A stretch of 64,000 bases of DNA from Desulfofustis sp. PB-SRB1. GTDB taxonomy: Bacteria > Desulfobacterota > Desulfobulbia > Desulfobulbales > Desulfocapsaceae. Under the pieces are notes generated by a model. It was not told where the DNA came from, did no database searches, and saw only the letters and a list, made by a program, of their open reading frames with translations. Below are positions 12,218 to 21,717 of this stretch, one piece after another. The translations under genes and the position numbers were made by a program. Position 1 is the first letter of the stretch. The number at the start of each line of letters is the position of its first letter. Location of the stretch: positions 310,001 through 374,000 of the forward strand of contig JAEQMT010000059.1 in assembly GCA_016722945.1 (NCBI GenBank), given 5' to 3'.

Positions 12218-14490
12218 CTACTGAGGATAGCTGAATGACAGCTCATCCTCGTTCATATCCACCAGCACCTTGCCGCCTTTGCTCAGGTTGCCGAACAAAA
12301 TCTGTTCGGAGAGCACGTCGCCGATCTCTTTCATGATCAGGCGCCGCAGCGGCCGGGCGCCGAAATCGGGGTCGTGGCCCTTACGTGCCAGCCAGGTGCG
12401 GGCCGCGTCGGTAAGCTCGATTTTGACCTTTTTCTCGCTCAATTGCTCCTCCAGTTCACCGATCAGTTTGTCCACCACCCGTTGCATCGATTCATTGCTC
12501 AGGGTTGCAAAGGTGATCACCGCATCGAGACGGTTTCTGAACTCTGGTGAGAACAGTTTTTCCACCGCCTTTACCCCCTTGGTCTTCTTTTCGCTGACAA
12601 AACCGATGGATTTGGCGGTCAACTCGCGAGCCCCGGCATTGGTGGTCATGATGATGATGACGTTGCGAAAATCAGCCTTTCTGCCGGAGTTATCGGTCAA
12701 GGTTGAGTGATCCATGACCTGCAGAAGGATTGAGTAGATATCCATGTGGGCCTTCTCAATCTCGTCAAGAAGCAGGACGGAATAGGGATGCTTGCGAATG
12801 GCCTCGGTAAGCAGACCGCCCTGATCGAATCCCACATAGCCGGGCGGCGCTCCAATCAGGCGGGCAACCGCGTGCTTTTCCATATACTCGCTCATGTCAA
12901 AACGCTCGAAATGGACCGTCAACGCCTGTGCCAGCTGGCGTGCCACCTCGGTCTTACCCACCCCGGTGGGCCCGGCAAACATAAAGGCGCCGGTGGGCGC
13001 GTTGGGATTGCCCAGGCCGGCGCGGGATCGCTTCACCGCCTGCACAATCGCCTCCAGGGCCTGATCCTGGCCGAAAATTACCGATTTGAGCCTGGTTTCC
13101 AGATCACGCAGCGATTCCGTATCCGAGCCCCGCCGCGAGCGTGCCGGGATGCGGGCGATGGCGGAAACCACCCGTTCTACATCAGGCACCTTGACCATAC
13201 CGTTTTGCCGCGACTCCAATCGAAACATGGAGCCCACCTCATCCATGATATCGATGGCCTTGTCCGGCAGAAAACGCTCGTTGATATAGCGATCGGAAAG
13301 CTCGGCCATGGCCCGCAGGGCCGTTTTCGAATAGCGGATACTATGATGTTTTTCATAGCGCCCCTGCAGTCCCTGAAGGATCCGGTGGGTATCGTTCACG
13401 GAGGGCTCTTCGATATCGATTTTTTGAAATCGCCTGGACAGGGCACGATCTTTTTCTATGTGATTGCGATATTCCTCGTAAGTGGTGGAGCCGATACAGC
13501 GGAGACTGCCTGACTGCAGGGCCGGTTTGAGCAGGTTGGAGGCATCCATGGAACCGCCGCTGGTGGCGCCGGCGCCGACGATGGTGTGCATCTCATCGAT
13601 GAACAAAATGGCATTGTCCTTTTTCTCGATGGCGGCCACCACCGCTTTGACCCGTTTCTCAAAGTCACCCCGATACTTGGTGCCCGCCACCAGCGAGCCC
13701 ATATCCAGCTGGTAGATGTCCACATCCTGCAGTAAATCCGGCACCACCGGTTTCTCGCCCCGTTGCCGGGCGCATTGATCCTCGTAAATCCGCAGGGCAA
13801 GCCCTTCCGCCATGGCGGTTTTGCCCACCCCGGTTCCCCCACCAGAAGCGGGTTGTTTTTCTTGCGCCGACACAGCACCTGCATGATTCGATTTACCTCA
13901 CGGCCCCGGCCAATCAGCGGGTCCAGTTTACCCTCGCGGGCCAGTAAGCCGTAATTTAAGGTAAATTCCGTCAGTGCCTTGTCTTCCTTGTCGCCGCCGG
14001 TTTTTTGTCCCGATTTGTCGGGGCCCGGCGGCGGATGCGGCAGCGGTTCTCGCTGCAGTCCCTCCGGCATCTCATGAGAAATGAGATTGACCACCGCCAT
14101 GCGGCCCACGCCGACGGAACTGAGGAAATAGACGGCGTGTGACTCGGTTTCCGAGAAAATCGCCACCAGCACGTCGCCTGAATCCACCTCTTTTTTGCCG
14201 CAGCTCTGAACGTGGGCAACTGCCCGCTGCAGTACCCGGTTAAAGGCGATCGTCTGGGTCGGGTCACCGCCGGTTGCCGCCGGGATGGTCGGTATTTCTT
14301 CAGAAAGAAACGACTCCAGCCGCTGTTTAAGGGTATCCACCGAACCACCGCATTCACGGATGATATAGGTGGCGAGGTCGTCATGCAGCAAGCCGTAGAG
14401 CATGTGCTCCACGGTGACGAACTCGTGTTTGTGTACCTTTGCCTCTTTAATTGCTTTTATCAGCGATGCTTCAAGGGTCTTGCTTAACAT
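12218..14490 (-). CDS. clpA: ClpA, ATPase subunit of ClpAP protease (apparent 1-nt frameshift)
   Basis: ClpA unfolds substrates, including those handed over by ClpS, and feeds them to ClpP. The protein begins [17 protein letters not shown] (ATG at 14490) with the double Clp-N domain, then two AAA+ modules. The first Walker A should be [15 protein letters not shown], but GEP and GVGKTA are in different frames: one base is missing in a run of G/C at about 13827-13832. The second Walker A ([11 protein letters not shown]) is intact and the ClpP-docking loop is present ([11 protein letters not shown]). The C-terminus is complete. All else looks functional, so a base-calling error in the G run is a serious possibility; otherwise the gene is dead at its first ATPase site. 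Confidence 0.88.
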
Positions 14491-14507
14491 GGTTGCACTC
14501 ACATGGG

Positions 14508-14822
14508 TTATTCCTGCTCCATACTGCAACGGAGCGGGAATTGATTTTTTCTGGCTAATTCATGAACAATTGTAATCTTCGTTTCACATATTTCCCTGGT
14601 GTAGATACCCGCGATGCCGACCCCGTCATTGTGAACGTTCAACATGATGCGGGTGGCCTCATGCTTGGTTTTTTGGAATATATTTTCCAATATTGACACG
14701 ACGAACTCCATGGTCGTGTAATCATCGTTATGTAACAACACTTTAAAGCGTGGCGGCTCTTTTGTCTCCACCCTTTCATCGGTGAGTACCTCGCCGTGCA
14801 GCTCTGTATCGCTATCAGCCAT
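14508..14822 (-). CDS. clpS: ClpS, N-end rule adaptor of ClpAP
   Basis: A 104-residue ClpS with a flexible acidic N-terminal tail (about 25 residues), then PPRFKVLLHNDDYTTMEFVV, where the DDYT/MEFV part forms the pocket for destabilising N-terminal residues, and the family's KHEATRIMLNVHNDGVGI and ETKITIVHELARK. It binds N-degron substrates and delivers them to ClpA. The gene lies 17 nt upstream of clpA on the same strand, the usual arrangement. Its intactness speaks for a working ClpAP system and thus against a truly dead clpA. Confidence 0.95.
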   Translation of the reverse strand: MADSDTELHGEVLTDERVETKEPPRFKVLLHNDDYTTMEFVVSILENIFQKTKHEATRIMLNVHNDGVGIAGIYTREICETKITIVHELARKNQFPLRCSMEQE

Positions 14823-14898: not shown

Positions 14899-16290
14899 TC
14901 AATGGATGCGCCGTGTCCGGTTCCGCCGGGCGCCGGTGAGCAGGGCGTGCAGTGAGATGAGAAGCTCTTCGACGATGAGCATATCTGAGACCGGCGATCT
15001 CTTAAGCTTATAATCGGCCGATAAGATCATCCGCAGTGCCTCTTTCAAAGAGGTTATTGATAGGTTCTCGGCGATCAGGAAATTTTGCAGCAGTCCAAAG
15101 GGATGACCTTTGAGATACTCGCCGCCACCTGCTTTGTCCTTAAGCGCCGGCAGGTAGTGATTGGTAAACTCACCATAGCTCATACGCCGGCGCCAGACCG
15201 GCTCAGCAATCATTTGCAGAGCCCGCACAGCGAGCAGTTTACGGATGAAGTTACGAAGCATCGCGATAACGGCCAGGCTGTGGATACCGTCACCGCGCAG
15301 ATGGTGGTAGATGGTCAGTGTTTTGGCCATATCGCCCTTGACCAGGGCCTCGCTGAGCTCAAATATGGCGTCTTCACGTGTTCGCCCGACCAGCAGGATA
15401 ACATCCTCTTTGATAATTGATATCCGATCTCCCAGATAGAGGGCGATTTTTTCCAGCTCAACGGCAAGAGCGGCGGGATGATTACCGATCAGGTTATACA
15501 GCGCTTCGATGGTATTCTGGTCGATATTTTTTTTAAGCCGGGTGCAGGTGCGTTGCGCAGTTTCAAAAAAAACGGTTTTTTGCTCTTTTTTATCCGGCGT
15601 CCTGCTTCCCTCAGGGATCGAGCAATCGATTATCTCACCATGCTTTTTCACGATGGTGAAGAGTTTTTTCCGCTTATCCACATGCTCGGCGACGAACACC
15701 ACCACCACCCCGGGCGGCAGCCCTTTTTCGATGGAGGCGGCAAATGCGGCATCGGCACCGGCGGTTGAGCTTGTTTTTTTTACCGCGGCCTGCCGTACGA
15801 TCTGATCAGCCCAGCCGATCTCGCCACCGGGATGGGCAAAGCCAAACCACTCACGCCAGAGGTCGGCGCTGATCTGCGAGAGAACCAGGGCCGCTGGATC
15901 ATCGAGCGGTGGGATGAATGAGACGAACTGGCGCAGCGCCCGCACGGTTTCCTTCTCATTTCCGCTCTGGTGGGCGGCAACACTTTTTTCCCAGAGATCG
16001 GAAGCGTGCTGTCTGGTTTGGAAAAAATTACACGGGCTCACCCTGAACAATTGGATGCCCGGCAAGAGTGAACGGGTAAAGAGCTTAACCCGCAGTTGTT
16101 CCACCGGCGTGGTCAGTCCATCGATGGAGTGAACGGTGATCTCGTGGTGATCGGTAAACGTCTGGATCACCGTTTGGCCAGCCTCGCTGCTCAGATAGCT
16201 CTCGCCCCAGCAGAGAAATAGTTGCGGCGGGTCGGCGGAACCAATGGCGTTGCCCACCGCCTCCGGTATGGTTCGCTTATGAACGGGCAC
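14899..16290 (-). CDS. holA: DNA polymerase III subunit delta (HolA-type)
   Basis: GTG start at 16290, inside the end of the preceding gene (14-nt overlap). HolA is the clamp-loader subunit that opens the beta clamp. The middle and end show the family pattern: ALYNLIGNHPAALAVELEKIALYLG, REDAIFELSEALVKGDMAKTLTIYHHLRGDG, AMLRNFIRKLLAVRALQ and SADYKLKRSPVSDMLIVEELL. At 463 residues it is longer than the usual 330-350; the extra length is in the N-terminal half (about residues 95-200), where the sequence is poorly conserved. Similar long forms may be normal in this lineage. Translational coupling to the upstream exported protein is likely from the overlap. Confidence 0.85.
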   Translation of the reverse strand: MPVHKRTIPEAVGNAIGSADPPQLFLCWGESYLSSEAGQTVIQTFTDHHEITVHSIDGLTTPVEQLRVKLFTRSLLPGIQLFRVSPCNFFQTRQHASDLWEKSVAAHQSGNEKETVRALRQFVSFIPPLDDPAALVLSQISADLWREWFGFAHPGGEIGWADQIVRQAAVKKTSSTAGADAAFAASIEKGLPPGVVVVFVAEHVDKRKKLFTIVKKHGEIIDCSIPEGSRTPDKKEQKTVFFETAQRTCTRLKKNIDQNTIEALYNLIGNHPAALAVELEKIALYLGDRISIIKEDVILLVGRTREDAIFELSEALVKGDMAKTLTIYHHLRGDGIHSLAVIAMLRNFIRKLLAVRALQMIAEPVWRRRMSYGEFTNHYLPALKDKAGGGEYLKGHPFGLLQNFLIAENLSITSLKEALRMILSADYKLKRSPVSDMLIVEELLISLHALLTGARRNRTRRIH

Positions 16291-18799
16291 CCGTCTTTTC
16301 GTCGGCGGCGGCCATGTGGTATAAAATGGCCGGCAGTGAACCGGGCATCAGATATTCATCACGGGTGGCACCGGGCACCAGCAGGGAGGGGTCGTCGGCC
16401 ACTTCGCGCCAATCGTTGGTATTATCAGTCAGGGCGACAATTTCCAACAGGCGGCGGTTGAACAGATTGTTGATGGCGGCCCTGCCGATGCCCACCGTGG
16501 CGAAGATATCCACCCGATTGGCGAACAGCGAGTTCAGCTCCTGATAGGCACGAATCCCCCCGCACGAGCCGACGCTCACAAATCGCCGCGGCGCCGGCAT
16601 GTCGGTGAAACTGAGCTCACCCTGTTCATAGAGTGCGGTAAGCGGGTCGAAGAGGTGTTCGTCTCGCCAATAGCTGTGCCCGCGCTGGGCGTACATCTCA
16701 TAGCCGTGGCTGAAAAATCGTTTCAGCAGGGTGGCCTGGCGTTTTTCGCCCTGATAAAAACCGACTGCATGGGAACACTCAATGGCGTTAACGGTTTTCA
16801 CCCATTCAACGATCAGCGGGGATATCTGTAACAATGGATAGAGCTGATCAATGATGATATCGGGCCGGTTGGGCCACCGGCTGATGACGTGTTGTACCTG
16901 TTTCCCCGCCGTGCTCACGGCGGGTTCACCGCTTAATTGCACGGACAGGCGGGGACGATAGCCGTGATCGGCAAGATGCAGGCAGTTGGTGCGATAGGAG
17001 TAGCGACCGTCGTCATCATCTTGAAAGATAGAGAGGCTTTTCAGGGCGCCGTCCGCTTTCCAGTGGTTGAAATCGGCGGTGATAAAGGGGGCAAGGCTCA
17101 CTGTTCCACGTGCTGCCAGCAGCTCCGTTATCTTCTCTTTACAGGTCTCGGTGAGCAGCTCCGGGTGGGTGGTGCGATAATGGTCGAGGATGACCCTAAT
17201 CTGCCGTGAGAGCAGCGGTGGTGCACCGCTTTCGGCGTTCAGCAGGGTATCGATGAGAAATGCGCGGCCAGGGGTCTGCAAAGAGCGCAGCAGGGTCTGG
17301 AAGGTGGCGGCAAAGAGTATCAGGCTTTGTTCATGAGCCAGGGCCGATTCGCACAGCAGCCCGATAATCACCTGTTGTGATGCTTCATCTGCCGGCAGCA
17401 GCGTGGTAAGCTTACCCTTCTGGGCGCAGCTCACCAGAAAATCGGCAACAAATCGCTTGGCCGGATCGATGGTTTCAAGAAAAACCAGGACATTGTCATC
17501 GAATTGCCCCTGCAGCCGGGTTTTAAAAACAGGGATCAGCACATCTCGAAATGAGGAGTCATATAACTCACCGCCACGACACAGCAGGGCGTACAGTTCC
17601 GGTACCGACTGCTCCTCGGCTGTGGCGATGCGGGCAAAGGCGGTTGCCTCACGAAGCGTGGTGATGGCGGCGGCACGTCTTCCGGCGGTAAGCGCTGCCG
17701 AAAAATCCTGCTGGTGCCGAGCCACGGCACGAGGATGCAGATGGTTAAACAGGGTGGTGAGGTGTTCCGGTGAAGTGTTGGCCAGAGTGGCGGCACTGAT
17801 CTCCACCCCACCCTGATCGGTTATCGCATGCAGGTGGTTGATCCGCTCAATAACCGGGTCGGCGCCGTCGATAAGCGCCGTAAGGAGCAACGATTTTTCT
17901 GCCTGCGAGAGCGTTTGGAAGGCGGCCAGGCGCTGTTGCGGAGCAAAACGAAAATAGGCGGCAAGCCAGAACAGCGGATCCGCCTTGGTTTCATCTCGGC
18001 TGGCAAGCAGTGCTTCAAGGCGCGCGATGTCGGCATCGGCCAGCTCCGTGATTGCCGAAGCCATCGCCAAGGCGCCCTCAGCGTCGATCGGCGCGGCATC
18101 TATCGCCGCCTCTGTCAGCCGCTGCCGACTCGGGTTCATGGCGATCAGTAGCCTGCCGGCGTCAACGGCCTGGGTGCCGCGTAAGCCAGTTACGCTATAT
18201 ATGGATTGTGCCGCCCAGTGACCGCTGCTGCCCATTTTTGCGAGCTGGGCAATCAGCTCAAGGAGCTGGGCGGGACTCAGTTCTTTGGCGCCGGCGAGCG
18301 GGACGATCGCCTGCCGGGCCGAAAATGGCAGCCCACTGCTTTGTTCAAGGATACGCCAGCCCTCCTCAATACCGGCGCCCGGCAGCTCGAACATCAGCTC
18401 GAGCAGGGCCAGCTGGTCAAAATAGAGGTCAAAAAATACAAGTGTTTCAAGGGCTTGTACCGCCTGCTCGGCGGTGATTTCGGGATGTGCGGTGAACAGA
18501 CGCAGGGCGTATTGTTTTGTGTAGGGCAGACTTTTAACGGTATCCTGGTGATATTGATAGAGTTCATCATCAAGGCAGCTCACCTGGCTGAAATAGGCCA
18601 GGGTAATATCATCAGAGGTGACGATGTCGGCGGCACCGGCACTTGTTCCGAAGACGGCGGTGATGCCAAGCAGCACGATTGCCCATACCGCGCTACGCAA
18701 TGGACGAGAAAAGTGACGGTCTTCGATTGTCAGAAAAGCGGCAGGGTAGTTCCCTGGTTTGGTGTCGTACCAATCATATTCGTCACCACACCGCGCCAT
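16277..18799 (-). CDS. Large exported protein with likely caspase-like C-terminal domain
   Basis: An 840-residue protein that I cannot assign to a named family. Residues 36-57 are a membrane segment or late signal peptide ending SAGAA, preceded by a charged 35-residue lead, so the true start may be further in. Residues 60-560 are helical and repetitive (EALLASRDETKADPLFWLA, short TPR/HEAT-like units). Residues 560-840 look alpha/beta. There RGHSYW (His708) and FVSVGSCGGIRAY (Cys746) match the His/Cys pair and spacing of clan CD peptidases (caspase, gingipain, C25-type), with VGIGRAAINNLF after it. This suggests a periplasmic cysteine peptidase; it is inference from motifs. It starts 6 nt after korB and overlaps holA. 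Confidence 0.6.
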   Translation of the reverse strand: MARCGDEYDWYDTKPGNYPAAFLTIEDRHFSRPLRSAVWAIVLLGITAVFGTSAGAADIVTSDDITLAYFSQVSCLDDELYQYHQDTVKSLPYTKQYALRLFTAHPEITAEQAVQALETLVFFDLYFDQLALLELMFELPGAGIEEGWRILEQSSGLPFSARQAIVPLAGAKELSPAQLLELIAQLAKMGSSGHWAAQSIYSVTGLRGTQAVDAGRLLIAMNPSRQRLTEAAIDAAPIDAEGALAMASAITELADADIARLEALLASRDETKADPLFWLAAYFRFAPQQRLAAFQTLSQAEKSLLLTALIDGADPVIERINHLHAITDQGGVEISAATLANTSPEHLTTLFNHLHPRAVARHQQDFSAALTAGRRAAAITTLREATAFARIATAEEQSVPELYALLCRGGELYDSSFRDVLIPVFKTRLQGQFDDNVLVFLETIDPAKRFVADFLVSCAQKGKLTTLLPADEASQQVIIGLLCESALAHEQSLILFAATFQTLLRSLQTPGRAFLIDTLLNAESGAPPLLSRQIRVILDHYRTTHPELLTETCKEKITELLAARGTVSLAPFITADFNHWKADGALKSLSIFQDDDDGRYSYRTNCLHLADHGYRPRLSVQLSGEPAVSTAGKQVQHVISRWPNRPDIIIDQLYPLLQISPLIVEWVKTVNAIECSHAVGFYQGEKRQATLLKRFFSHGYEMYAQRGHSYWRDEHLFDPLTALYEQGELSFTDMPAPRRFVSVGSCGGIRAYQELNSLFANRVDIFATVGIGRAAINNLFNRRLLEIVALTDNTNDWREVADDPSLLVPGATRDEYLMPGSLPAILYHMAAADEKTGARS

Positions 18800-18805
18800 G
18801 CTTAA

Positions 18806-19858
18806 TTAGCGCAACGATTCGTTGAGTGCGGCAAGTGCTTTATTGCCGGGACACAAAGTTTTTTCATCGAGCTGATTCAGTGGGGTCGCCACCGTCTTGT
18901 TGATGTCGTGAAACTCTTCGCTGTCGGGGTTGAGATAGAGAAATCCGGTCAACAGCAGTTCGTTGTATCTGGCCTCCTCAATAGCGGCTATGGCATCTTT
19001 TCGATCGGTAACGATGTGTTGTTCCTCCTGCTTGAATAATTTGATAATCGAGCCGTCATGCAGGGTTACCGGAACCGCCGTATTGTCGGGATATTCGGTG
19101 GTGATTTCCTGGCGCAGGGGGATGAAATCAAAGGTGTTGGTTACCTCCATGTGATCGCGCACCCAGGAGTAACTTTTTGTTGATGTGGGGGCGTTGTTGA
19201 AGGTTACGCAGGGTGAGATTACATCGATGAAGGCAAACCCGCGATGAGAGATTGCCGCCTTGATGAGTGGAACCAGCTGTTTTTTGTCTCCGGAAAAGCC
19301 GCGAGCGACAAACCCGGCACCAAGCTGGATAGCCAGTTCACACAAATCGATGGATTCAAATGAGACCGGCGCCCCCTTGCGGGTTTTTGAACCCTTGTCG
19401 GCGGTGGCGGAATCCTGTCCCTTGGTGAGCCCGTAACAGCCGTTGTTCATGACAATGTAGATCATGTTGAGATTACGCCTGACCACATGGGCGAATTGTC
19501 CCAGCCCGATGGATGCGGTGTCGCCGTCGCCAGAGACTCCCAGATAAATTAACTCACGGTTGGCCATGTTGGCGCCGGAGGCCACCGACGGCATGCGACC
19601 GTGCACCGAGTTGAAACCGTGCGACCTGCCGAGGAAATAGGCCGGTGTTTTCGACGAGCACCCGATACCGGAAAGCTTCACCACATGGTGCGGGGGAATC
19701 GACATTTCAAAAAACGAGGTGATAATAGCGCTGACGATGGAGTCGTGACCGCACCCGGCGCACAGCGTGGAGATACCTCCTTCGTATTGCTTGCGGGTGT
19801 AGCCGATGTCGTTCTTTTGCGCTTCGGGGTGGCGAAATGCGGGCCGGTTATAACTCAT
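18806..19858 (-). CDS. 2-oxoacid:ferredoxin oxidoreductase beta subunit (TPP-binding)
   Basis: Start set at the ATG at 19858 (MSYNRPAFRHPE), overlapping the alpha-subunit stop by ATGA; a longer frame upstream is only the shadow of that gene. LCAGCGHDSI supplies Cys residues seen in the [4Fe-4S] part of beta subunits, and GDGDTASIGLGQFAHVVRRN with NNGCYGLTKGQ is the thiamine-diphosphate and magnesium site. The pair with the upstream alpha/gamma fusion forms a ferredoxin-linked 2-oxoacid oxidoreductase that decarboxylates a 2-oxoacid to its acyl-CoA. 2-oxoglutarate (KorAB type) is the likeliest substrate by domain style, but branched-chain keto acids are possible given ilvD nearby. Confidence 0.9.
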   Translation of the reverse strand: MSYNRPAFRHPEAQKNDIGYTRKQYEGGISTLCAGCGHDSIVSAIITSFFEMSIPPHHVVKLSGIGCSSKTPAYFLGRSHGFNSVHGRMPSVASGANMANRELIYLGVSGDGDTASIGLGQFAHVVRRNLNMIYIVMNNGCYGLTKGQDSATADKGSKTRKGAPVSFESIDLCELAIQLGAGFVARGFSGDKKQLVPLIKAAISHRGFAFIDVISPCVTFNNAPTSTKSYSWVRDHMEVTNTFDFIPLRQEITTEYPDNTAVPVTLHDGSIIKLFKQEEQHIVTDRKDAIAAIEEARYNELLLTGFLYLNPDSEEFHDINKTVATPLNQLDEKTLCPGNKALAALNESLR

Positions 19859-21717
19859 GATTGCGTCTCCTTGGCGGACGGCAGCGTCGGTCTGAGAAAT
19901 CCTTTGGTGCGGGCCAGAAGGGTGGCATGGATCTGGTTGCTGATCATGGTTGCGGTGATCGGCAGACCGTTGAAGTTGGTTACCGAAACGAGCTTTCCGG
20001 GCGGCAGCTGGCATTCGCCGGTGAGCAATATCTTCATCTGCGAATCGCGGTTCTGTTCAATGACGAACACCACCTCGTGCTGATTGATAAAATCAAATAC
20101 CTCGGGCTGGAAGGGAAAGGCGCGGATGCGCATGCGGTTGATTACCACCCCGCCGGCCGCCAGTTTATCCAGGGCCTCACCGGCCGCGGCGGTGGTTGAG
20201 CCGAAGAAGATGGCACCCAGCGGCGCCTGGTTGTCGGAAATATCTATCATGGGTTCCGGCACCAACCGTCGAGCCGTCTCCCACTTGTTCAAGAGCCGCC
20301 GCATGCCGCGCTCGTAGGCGGCGCTTTCCTCGGTGTAGGCGGCAAACTCGTTATGTGAGGTGCCTCGTGTCACATAGGCGCCGCGCTCCGGGTGGGCGCC
20401 GGGAATGGTGCGGTAACAGATACCATCCCGGTCGACGTCCAGATAACGACCCCAGGGACGATCCATCTTGTCGAGCTCGTCGTACCCCAGCACCTTGCCG
20501 CGATCGTAGCAGTGCCGGTCATCCCACTCAAGCGGCTCACAGATATGTTCATTCATGCCCAGGTCGAGATCGCTCATCAGAATTATCGGGGTCTGCAGGC
20601 GATCGGCCAGGTCAAAGGCCTGGGCGCTCATTTCAAAACACTCTTTCGGGTCACAGGGGAGCAATAACACGTTGCGGGTATCGCCATGGGAGGCATAGGC
20701 GCAGGCCAAAATGTCGGACTGCTGGGTTCTGGTGGGCATGCCGGTAGAGGGCCCACTGCGCTGCACATCGATGAGCACCACCGGAATCTCGGCGAAATAG
20801 GCAAGGCCGAGAAATTCAGCCATAAGGGAGATCCCCGGACCCGAGGTCGCGGTAAACGAACGGGCTCCGTTCCAGGCGCCGCCGATGGCGATACCGATGG
20901 CCGCCAGTTCGTCTTCTGCCTGGATGGCGGCATAACGCTTTTCACCGGTCTCGGGGTCGGTCCGGTACTTTCTGGCGTAGCGTTCAAAGGCCTCGATCAC
21001 CGAGGTCGACGGAGTTATCGGATACCACCCCGCCACCGTGGCGCCGCCATAAAGAGCGCCTAAGGCGGCGGCACTGTTGCCGTCGATCATGATCCGTTCC
21101 CCTACCCCGTCAGCGCTTTTGATGGTGAGTCCGCAGACGCCGTGATGATGGGTATGGGCGTAGTCGTAGCCGAGCCGCAGAGCGGTGAGGTTGGGCTCCG
21201 CCAGCTTCGGTTTTTTGGCGAATTGCAGACGTACCGCCTCGTTCATGGGCTCCAGACCGATATCAAACAGAGCGGCCAGGGCGCCGATGTAGATGATATT
21301 TTTCATCAGTTGACGCAGCCGGCTGTCGCCGAACTCATCGTTGCAGAGCTGGGTCAGCGGTACCCCGATAGTGGTGATGTCATCGCGGGTGAAACTGTCC
21401 GGCAGCTCACGGGTGGAATCATAGAAAAAATAACCGCCGGGTAACACCATATCGTAATCCTGGCGCATGGTCTGGCCGTTTACCGCAATGATAAAATCGG
21501 CCCCGCCGCGACGGCCCAGGTGCCCCTTTTCGGTGATACGCACCTCGTACCAGGTGGGCAGCCCCTGGATGTTTGAGGGGAAGACGTTTTTCGGAACAAC
21601 CGGGACACCCAGACGAAACACCACCTTGGCGAACAGATTGTTGGCGCTGGCTGAGCCGGATCCGTTGACGTTGGCGAAGCGGACAACGAAATCGTTGGTT
21701 TTTTCCATTGGTTTCAT
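19855..21717 (-). CDS. 2-oxoacid:ferredoxin oxidoreductase alpha subunit, gamma-alpha fusion
   Basis: The start is taken at the ATG at 21717, which overlaps the stop of the flavoprotein gene as ATGA. The 620-residue product joins an N-terminal gamma domain (about residues 1-185; NVNGSGSASANNLFAKVVFRLG, GADFIIAVN) to an alpha domain carrying the pyrimidine and CoA-side motifs (GNSAAALGALYGGATVAGWYPITPSTSV, IQAEDELAAIGIAIGGAWNGARS, TATSGPGISLMAE). This fusion is the common bacterial KorA form. The C-terminal part (ITPSTS to end) also holds RMRIRAFPF and FVIEQNRDSQMKILL, the domain II region. It works with the beta subunit 3' to it. Confidence 0.91.
   Translation of the reverse strand: MKPMEKTNDFVVRFANVNGSGSASANNLFAKVVFRLGVPVVPKNVFPSNIQGLPTWYEVRITEKGHLGRRGGADFIIAVNGQTMRQDYDMVLPGGYFFYDSTRELPDSFTRDDITTIGVPLTQLCNDEFGDSRLRQLMKNIIYIGALAALFDIGLEPMNEAVRLQFAKKPKLAEPNLTALRLGYDYAHTHHHGVCGLTIKSADGVGERIMIDGNSAAALGALYGGATVAGWYPITPSTSVIEAFERYARKYRTDPETGEKRYAAIQAEDELAAIGIAIGGAWNGARSFTATSGPGISLMAEFLGLAYFAEIPVVLIDVQRSGPSTGMPTRTQQSDILACAYASHGDTRNVLLLPCDPKECFEMSAQAFDLADRLQTPIILMSDLDLGMNEHICEPLEWDDRHCYDRGKVLGYDELDKMDRPWGRYLDVDRDGICYRTIPGAHPERGAYVTRGTSHNEFAAYTEESAAYERGMRRLLNKWETARRLVPEPMIDISDNQAPLGAIFFGSTTAAAGEALDKLAAGGVVINRMRIRAFPFQPEVFDFINQHEVVFVIEQNRDSQMKILLTGECQLPPGKLVSVTNFNGLPITATMISNQIHATLLARTKGFLRPTLPSAKETQS

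Follow-up and report, generated by a model that had tools for sequence, protein, structure and literature searches.

Does the long open reading frame between korB and holA in Desulfofustis sp. PB-SRB1 encode an exported caspase-like protease? The question was raised by a preliminary description of the window (the whole stretch of 64,000 nucleotides analysed here, positions 310,001 to 374,000 of contig JAEQMT010000059.1), which pointed to a candidate His/Cys catalytic pair in an 840-residue protein. The reading frame, here called gene X, is real, and the motifs RGHSYW and VGSCGG do place His708 and Cys746 in its product, 38 residues apart. The features considered below, in window coordinates, are as follows.

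16277..18799, minus strand: gene X, 840 aa, probably exported protein; query of the family search
14899..16290, minus strand: holA, DNA polymerase III delta subunit, GTG start; conserved downstream neighbour, overlapping gene X by 14 nt
18806..20014, minus strand: korB, upstream neighbour here, with 6 nt from its stop to the gene X ATG; not family-wide
18632..18706, minus strand: signal-peptide-like hydrophobic stretch, residues ~32-56 (helix and simple hydrophobicity rule)
17057..18616, minus strand: alpha-solenoid, residues 62-581 (secondary structure of the AlphaFold2 model)
16295..17047, minus strand: C-terminal alpha/beta domain, residues 585-835, putative caspase-hemoglobinase fold (AlphaFold2 model)
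17006..17017, minus strand: D595-D596-D597-G598, following strand 1; may form an acidic S1 pocket that accepts a basic P1 residue (invariance and PMC4357240)
16667..16684, minus strand: RGHSYW, putative catalytic His708 and adjacent glycine (alignment)
16556..16576, minus strand: SVGSCGG, putative catalytic Cys746 (alignment)
16409..16411, minus strand: W797 after strand 5, candidate S1-pocket aromatic of clan CD loop L5 (invariance)

The gene X family and its neighbourhood

The window protein has no Pfam match and no PADLOC family at E <= 10, no NCBIfam match, and no significant sequence match in the PDB. A single-sequence search of the named genomes returned no relatives, whereas an alignment-based search, using the patterns QRGHSYWR and GKAxINNPYN-like, recovered 115. 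Matches occur patchily, in 40 of the 97 genomes searched (the source genome included), and within our sample of the phylum none lies outside the order Desulfobulbales. Culturable strains with the gene include Desulfoprunum benzoelyticum and Desulfobulbus elongatus. The window protein is thus the founding member of an unnamed protein family. In the published literature, as judged from brief summaries that leave absence unproven, we recognised nothing that treats it.

Two aligned sets with genomes in common, and hence non-independent, were used. The motif-blind set holds 37 full-length proteins (36 relatives and the window protein) from a whole-protein search reaching down to 31% identity. The larger set (n = 81) leaves out 35 of the 115 relatives and was selected partly via the His motif, so that statements on conservation rest first on the motif-blind proteins. 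CHAT (PF12770), C14 (PF00656), C25 (PF01364) and C11 (PF03415) are absent from the Pfam families matched at E <= 1 by the 37 full-length members, and none of the four is matched by the 81 C-terminal domains at the same threshold.

Gene X had been described as tied to both korB and holA. The link to holA is kept in 72 of 78 loci, but korB was present in the 1.5 kb upstream of gene X in just seven of the 64 loci with room for it, and a family-wide tie to korB is not supported. The genes that recur beside gene X are holA, clpS and clpA. In one relative, representing one lineage, gene X follows mreC, PBP2-like and RodA/FtsW-family genes, and in five others it stands beside a YkuD-domain (L,D-transpeptidase) gene. 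Among ten genomes examined that do not carry gene X, clpA is near holA in nine (the exception being L238), korB directly precedes holA in two (L231 and L232) and other genes occupy that place in eight; clpS went unrecognised in L231, L238 and L240, where mechanical ORF picking may hide it. One single-contig genome with no gene X match (G005) has korB and then, after ~160 bp, holA. A requirement for gene X by holA and its neighbours is therefore not supported. Nor did gene X prove to be a replacement for lptE before holA, since an LptE match is present on another contig of the same genome. A role in defence was likewise set aside, given the lack of a PADLOC match and the identity of the recurrent neighbours.

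Predicted architecture and conservation of the His/Cys pair

In the AlphaFold2 model (pLDDT 88.8), a helix resembling a signal peptide comes first, then an alpha-solenoid, which corresponds to the long helical region reported earlier, and finally the C-terminal alpha/beta domain. The proposed export signal also finds a counterpart: a hydrophobic helix is predicted at residues 32-51, followed by an Ala-containing, cleavage-like stretch, which suggests that the protein is exported. Residues 1-31 are modelled at very low confidence, so the start codon is uncertain and may lie further in. According to a simple rule, the N-terminus is hydrophobic in 71 of the 81 family sequences, and the other ten, which a length rule had shortened, are hydrophobic there too after upstream extension of the ORF.

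In the model, the C-terminal domain runs in the order strand 585-592, helix, strand 615-618, helices, hairpin 664-681, helix, strand 702-705, H708, helix, strand 739-743, C746, helix, strand 763-768 and helix. His708 is located at the end of strand 702-705 and Cys746 at the end of strand 739-743, two consecutive strands with one helix between them. In clan CD proteases, the His sits at the C-terminal end of strand 3, next to a glycine, and the Cys at that of strand 4, and the S1 residues are contributed by helix 1/loop 1, loop 4 and loop 5, with a conserved aromatic on loop 5 (PMC4357240). By sequence order, D595-D597, where helix 1 begins, and W797, which follows strand 5, match these S1 positions. 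In its order along the sequence, the predicted arrangement fits the clan CD layout; the hairpin at 664-681, which sits between helix 2 and the His strand, counts against this reading. The clan CD sheet has six strands, five parallel and one antiparallel; the gene X strands are those listed above, and the structural searches described below are ambiguous on this fold.

An H/C pair at such a spacing means little in a single protein, and conservation in relatives had been suggested as a check. His708 and Cys746 are invariant in 37/37 motif-blind members and 81/81 of the larger set, and in both sets the same holds for the glycine adjacent to His708 (G707), for the His-first order of the dyad, as in clan CD, and for DDDG (D595-G598). 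Cys746 is the sole invariant Cys among the nine of the window protein (37-member set), and of its 22 His just two are invariant, H708 being the only one of these within the C-terminal domain. S709, Y710, W711, S742, G744 and G747 are also invariant near the pair, as is W797 further on; position 827, in contrast, is His in 75 of 81 sequences yet Tyr in the window protein. Invariance by itself is no proof of catalysis, because 66 of the 840 positions are invariant in the 37-member set, 36 of them within residues 585-835.

Comparison with known folds and alternative readings

Structural searches did not decide on the proposed caspase-hemoglobinase fold: the predicted placement of His708 and Cys746, each closing one of two successive strands, favours it, whereas the structural matches are ambiguous and Foldseek returned no match at E <= 0.001 with either the full or the C-terminal model. 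In VIA-align with the full model, SAVED-CHAT 8tl0_C was top (Z 8.0, rmsd 4.0, 163 residues aligned over 584-824), equalled in Z by a designed helical protein. Separases scored Z 7.1 and 7.0 (172 and 175 aligned), partly in the solenoid, since these alignments begin at residues 492 and 460; the C11 protease 6n9j scored Z 6.8 (rmsd 5.0, 176 aligned, residues 584-840), and GTPases and receptor domains Z 6.8-7.6. With the C-terminal domain alone, SAVED-CHAT ranked seventh (Z 6.7), level with GTPases and receptor domains, and C11 ranked 45th (Z 6.2). All of these matches are middling, such Z values being common according to the tool. Caspase, metacaspase, legumain and gingipain are absent from the best 50 matches listed for either model, an absence that the tool does not count as evidence.

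Profile comparison with hhalign gave scores for gene X against CHAT, C14, C25 and C11 that were no better than reversed controls. Among known clan CD pairs, CHAT-C14 (96.7%) and CHAT-C25 (95.2%) pass and C14-C25 (13.5%) and C14-C11 (5.9%) are weak, but the true pairs CHAT-C11 and C25-C11 fail too, so the negative result decides little. We also scored the flanks of the pair with H and C masked. Using the family profile and a C25 template, whose anchors were picked by rule without one-by-one checking, the gene X pair ranked 39 of 32,445 placements, with 38 placements outscoring it and a negative score of its own (-9.7). For single members the median fraction rank on C25 flanks was 0.005, a value reached by four (0.6%) of 633 H-C pairs in 113 other ORFs. 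The CHAT and C14 templates ranked the pair 4188 and 2320 of 32,445, and as only C25 favoured it, that result is to be discounted for three tries. In a control with the same templates, the true pairs of known clan CD members took ranks between 1 and several hundred, reaching 1577 with C14 on C25 and 3778 with CHAT on C25; the test is therefore of limited power either way.

Among the nearest known systems, C25 (the gingipains, PF01364) has motifs of a similar style. Its clearest examples show G-H-[GS] and, ~30-43 residues on, [SG]-C-x-G; the gene X flanks are closer to C25 than to CHAT or C14, and RgpB has an acidic residue on helix 1 and a Trp on loop 5. Unlike C25, however, gene X carries a predicted alpha-solenoid in front and no further domain after ~residue 835, and neither profile similarity nor a Pfam C25 match was detected. 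Its His is followed by Ser, where most clan CD examples compared have Gly. Helical repeats followed by a C-terminal caspase-type domain are shared with separase (C50) and with TPR-CHAT/Csx29, the Craspase protease, as outlined in PMC9729208, and separase and SAVED-CHAT both appear among the structural matches; gene X differs in its signal-like N-terminus and in the absence of a CHAT match or CHAT profile similarity. The C11 (clostripain-like) family offers a precedent for exported clan CD proteases, clostripain being secreted according to PMC11296011, and 6n9j is titled a secreted C11 protease, but the C11 motifs H-G and D-[AM]-C-L-M-[AG] differ from those of gene X, again with no profile similarity. 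Prokaryotic metacaspases and orthocaspases (C14) share the His/Cys dyad, and PMC3501461 lists 46 sequences with one N-terminal helix, maybe a signal peptide, so that some may be exported. Gene X has no Pfam C14 match, and the C14 flank template misses its pair.

The surroundings of Cys746 admit another chemistry. A nucleophile elbow usually lies between a strand and a helix, and G744-S745-C746-G747-G748, a G-x-C-x-G sequence, is placed in this way between strand 739-743 and helix 748-758; the protein could then be a thiol hydrolase or an acyltransferase built on a different alpha/beta fold, acting on envelope esters, amides or glycans and not on proteins. We consider this unlikely. In the common elbow families, alpha/beta hydrolases and class I amidotransferases, the catalytic His follows the nucleophile, whereas the one invariant His in the gene X domain comes before Cys746 and the later His827 is Tyr in the window protein. 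About equally improbable, in our estimate, is a Ras-like or other Rossmann-like domain that has no protease activity and serves as an exported scaffold or sensor, with D595-D597, H708 and C746 as its ligand- or metal-binding residues. Most entries in the structural lists are GTPases and receptor amino-terminal domains, hairpin 664-681 fits the beta2-beta3 hairpin that Ras-like topology includes, and Asp, His and Cys at one sheet edge could bind metal. Yet those matches share the middling Z values noted above, the P-loop G-x(4)-G-K-[ST] is absent from the sequence, and a ligand role alone would not account for a lone invariant Cys with small residues on either side.

It is also conceivable, though very improbable, that the domain has a caspase-type fold but lacks catalytic activity or serves as a binding module. 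The patchy distribution of gene X would agree with this, and pseudo-variants of bacterial caspase homologues exist (pseudo-orthocaspases, PMC6426788), but these replace their catalytic residues, whereas no aligned member of the gene X family departs from the putative catalytic His and Cys.

Proposed function and significance

We infer, and regard as fairly probable, that the gene X protein is an exported clan CD-type (caspase/gingipain/separase) cysteine endopeptidase composed of a solenoid and a protease domain. Its invariant His and Cys have the placement seen in caspase- and gingipain-type proteases; gene X therefore probably represents a new cell-envelope protease family, even though the structural matches do not clinch the fold. 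The protein would probably be translocated to the periplasm, where the N-terminal solenoid may hold the substrate or regulate the protease domain, His708 would activate Cys746, and Cys746 would attack the peptide bond. DDDG after strand 1 and Trp797 after strand 5 may form the S1 pocket, from which cleavage after Arg or Lys is predicted. That the substrate is an envelope protein is a guess, made solely because of the adjoining RodA/FtsW-family and PBP2-like genes in one relative and the YkuD-domain gene in five. The fullest version of the proposal, a new clan CD family in the form of an exported, separase-like, Arg/Lys-specific machine of the Desulfobulbales with a cell-envelope or peptidoglycan-synthesis protein as its substrate, is doubtful.

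More than 100 relatives exist, and the members scanned are unnamed in every family library searched here, which marks a gap in annotation. If the proposal is true, clan CD would gain an unusually arranged family, its solenoid-plus-protease enzyme lying outside the cytoplasm, and with it a test case for a possible repeated origin of the separase-like layout. The Desulfobulbales, an order important for sulfur cycling, would then possess an unannotated and possibly regulated envelope protease.

Conservation and distribution of the X family

The gene under study, which we refer to as X, occupies 16277-18799 on the minus strand, encodes 840 residues and is present as a single copy in its own genome (4.69 Mb). 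Its coordinates, its two motifs and the spacing of 38 residues between His708 and Cys746 were correctly given in the preliminary description. At E <= 10 the protein had no match among the Pfam, NCBIfam and PADLOC models. Sequence searches of the PDB gave insignificant matches only, the lowest E value being 0.47 for the protein and 0.48 for the profile. Scans of its relatives gave weak, scattered matches of at most four members each; the best E values against Pfam were 0.0047 for full-length sequences and 0.0074 for the C-terminal domain, and the best against NCBIfam was 0.014.

To define conserved positions we used a motif-blind alignment of 37 sequences including that of the window, excluding the fragmentary sequences of genomes G008, G050 and G054. 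Invariant positions number 66 of 840 and include D595-D597, G598, S601, E701, R706 to W711, S742, G744, C746, G747, W797 and Y816, all of which stay among the 56 invariant positions of a larger alignment (81 sequences including the window's, with relatives found partly via the His motif pattern). The proposed catalytic residues, His708 and Cys746, are invariant in both alignments. Of the nine cysteines in the window protein C746 alone never varies, and of its 22 histidines only H324 and H708 are invariant.

Whole-protein searches identified X in 40 of 97 genomes, its own counted. The window's own bacterial family accounts for 33 of these, out of 60 genomes searched, and the remainder of the order for 7 out of 37. 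When 395 genomes of the phylum were sampled with a full-length profile (E <= 0.01), 12 carried X, all from the same order; the C-terminal domain profile alone again gave 12, all from this order. At E <= 1 the latter profile also matched nine genomes from outside the order over short stretches (E 0.1-0.6); we read these matches as chance. Phyla beyond its own were covered solely by a pattern scan of genome contigs, which confirmed 115 X relatives; locus and larger-alignment counts cover 80 of these. Genera among the listed relatives include Desulfofustis and Desulfurivibrio, both members of Desulfobulbales, together with Desulfocapsa, Desulfopila, Desulfoprunum, Desulfobulbus and others. Several are labelled broadly (for example, Proteobacteria bacterium), two as Desulfobacteraceae (L098, L104) and one as Desulfoarculaceae (L069). 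As far as sampled, the X family is confined to one order.

Elsewhere in the own genome, on a different contig, G000:C1:292277-292819 scores 24.7 bits against CHAT, barely above the cut-off of 24. At another locus an ORF located upstream of X and separated from it by two others (L106:3827-5452) begins with residues that we take to resemble a C14 caspase homologue.

Predicted architecture and comparison with clan CD peptidases

The AlphaFold2 model of full-length X (pLDDT 88.8, pTM 0.84; pLDDT < 50 at residues 1-31, 53-56 and 837-840) contains the following parts:

Residues 32-51, hydrophobic helix, signal-peptide-like
Residues 62-581, alpha-solenoid (helices)
Residues 585-835, alpha/beta domain

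By a simple rule, the hydrophobic N-terminal stretch is found in 71 of 81 X sequences; the other 10 are ORFs cut by the length rule, in which it appears on upstream extension. Two of the 81 show a lipobox-like pattern, and 22 have a 19-residue hydrophobic segment further along, which may be a buried helix. Within the solenoid, N321, H324, E333, S416 and F417 are invariant (residues 318-334 and 406-430; window 17510-17848, minus strand), possibly forming a binding surface for some partner.

Fold comparisons are ambiguous on whether the C-terminal region has a caspase-like fold. Foldseek returned nothing at E <= 0.001 for either the full or the C-terminal model. With VIA-align and the full model, SAVED-CHAT came first among the matches listed (Z 8.0, 163 aligned, rmsd 4.0), but a designed helical protein tied with it, and receptor domains and GTPases came next at Z 6.8-7.6. 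Among the matches listed, two separase alignments (172 and 175 residues) and that of a C11 protease (176 residues) are longer than those of the GTPases, but the separase alignments begin at X residues 492 and 460 and so take in part of the solenoid. For the C-terminal model alone, SAVED-CHAT (Z 6.7, rank 7) and C11 (Z 6.2, rank 45) sit among GTPases and receptor domains in a list with a top Z of 7.2.

Profile comparisons of X with CHAT, C14, C25 and C11 using hhalign were equal to reversed controls. Applied to known clan CD pairs, the method found CHAT-C14 (96.7%) and CHAT-C25 (95.2%), gave only 13.5% for C14-C25 and 5.9% for C14-C11, and missed CHAT-C11 and C25-C11. Since true clan CD pairs are missed, the result for X is unsurprising for a deep branch. 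We also conducted an active-site template test in which the His and Cys themselves were masked. The His708/Cys746 pair ranked 39 of 32,445, not first, with the C25 template, and 4188 and 2320 with the CHAT and C14 templates, respectively. Across 80 single X members the median fraction rank with C25 was 0.005, and the same score was reached by 4 of 633 (0.6%) control H-C pairs from 113 other ORFs (at least 250 aa, mechanically called, some perhaps not genes). The C25 result lends modest support to a putative caspase-type pair, weakened by the trial of three templates.

In the clan CD layout, as set out in PMC4357240, strands 3 and 4 end with the His and the Cys, a glycine adjoins the His, and S1 residues come from helix 1/loop 1 and from loops 4 and 5, the last bearing an aromatic. 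In the X model, H708 and C746 end consecutive strands joined by one helix, and, as in clan CD, His708 has a glycine beside it, the invariant G707. Invariant Asp residues opening the helix after strand 1 and the invariant W797 after strand 5 would fit the S1 residues of this layout by their position in the sequence. The S1 pocket would by this pattern be acidic, and X would therefore be predicted to cleave with Arg or Lys at P1. Overall, X is probably a clan-CD-like protease, with a putative caspase-type fold.

Gene neighbourhood

holA, encoding the DNA polymerase III delta subunit, lies downstream of X on the same strand at 72 of 80 loci; at six it is absent despite room, and two are too short. 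The distance from X to the downstream start, assigned by rule, is -23 to +23 nt in 42 of 62 loci, including 12 at -14 as in the window; in the remaining 20 it is larger or the start is wrongly assigned. The X-holA overlap suggests co-transcription and is not evidence of shared function. clpS and clpA are often found further downstream. In the window, clpA (12218-14529, minus strand) is frameshifted, with its N-terminal and C-terminal parts in different frames and the change near the first Walker A region, whereas in relatives it is one ORF of roughly 755-760 aa; the split may reflect an assembly error or a true break.

Of the 64 loci with enough upstream sequence, 7 have korB within 1.5 kb upstream of X; 10 of the 80 loci have it somewhere upstream, including Desulfofustis-like and Desulfopila loci. 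In 35 of the 80 loci an EamA transporter family gene is close to X (Pfam check on one); it is upstream and divergent in all 14 listed of the 35. At four of the six loci lacking holA (L079, L111, L114 and L116), X converges with a gene on the opposite strand that encodes a YkuD-domain (L,D-transpeptidase) protein (Pfam check on L079 and L111). The same gene was found at L034 and L037, which belong with these four to a group where X does not adjoin holA. L037 and L111, on contigs of equal length, are probably one genome, giving five genomes with this neighbour. At L095:3294-11285, X is part of a cell-elongation-like cluster: mreC, a PBP2-like gene and a RodA/FtsW-family gene stand directly before it, and a GHMP kinase gene after it.

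The surroundings of holA were examined in ten relatives without X; in genome G005 korB is followed by holA, about 160 bp apart. Because X is absent from relatives that keep these neighbours, it is not required for them to persist; X has been lost or gained without disturbing them.

Proposed activity and relation to known systems

We propose that X would be exported, that its solenoid may serve as a platform for a substrate or regulator, and that a caspase-type dyad would cut an envelope protein after a basic residue. Gingipains are exported clan CD enzymes. Others are clostripain, according to PMC11296011, and a secreted C11 protease in the PDB, judged by its entry title; some metacaspases are possibly exported too, according to PMC3501461. 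Exported clan CD enzymes are therefore not new as such. TPR-CHAT, structurally separase-like according to PMC9729208, couples helical repeats to a caspase-type protease and in this respect resembles the layout proposed for X. New here are the X family itself, the arrangement of a solenoid and a proposed protease domain behind a signal-like N-terminus, and the restriction of the family, as far as sampled, to one order. X represents a real, conserved and unannotated family, and is a good candidate for a new peptidase family.
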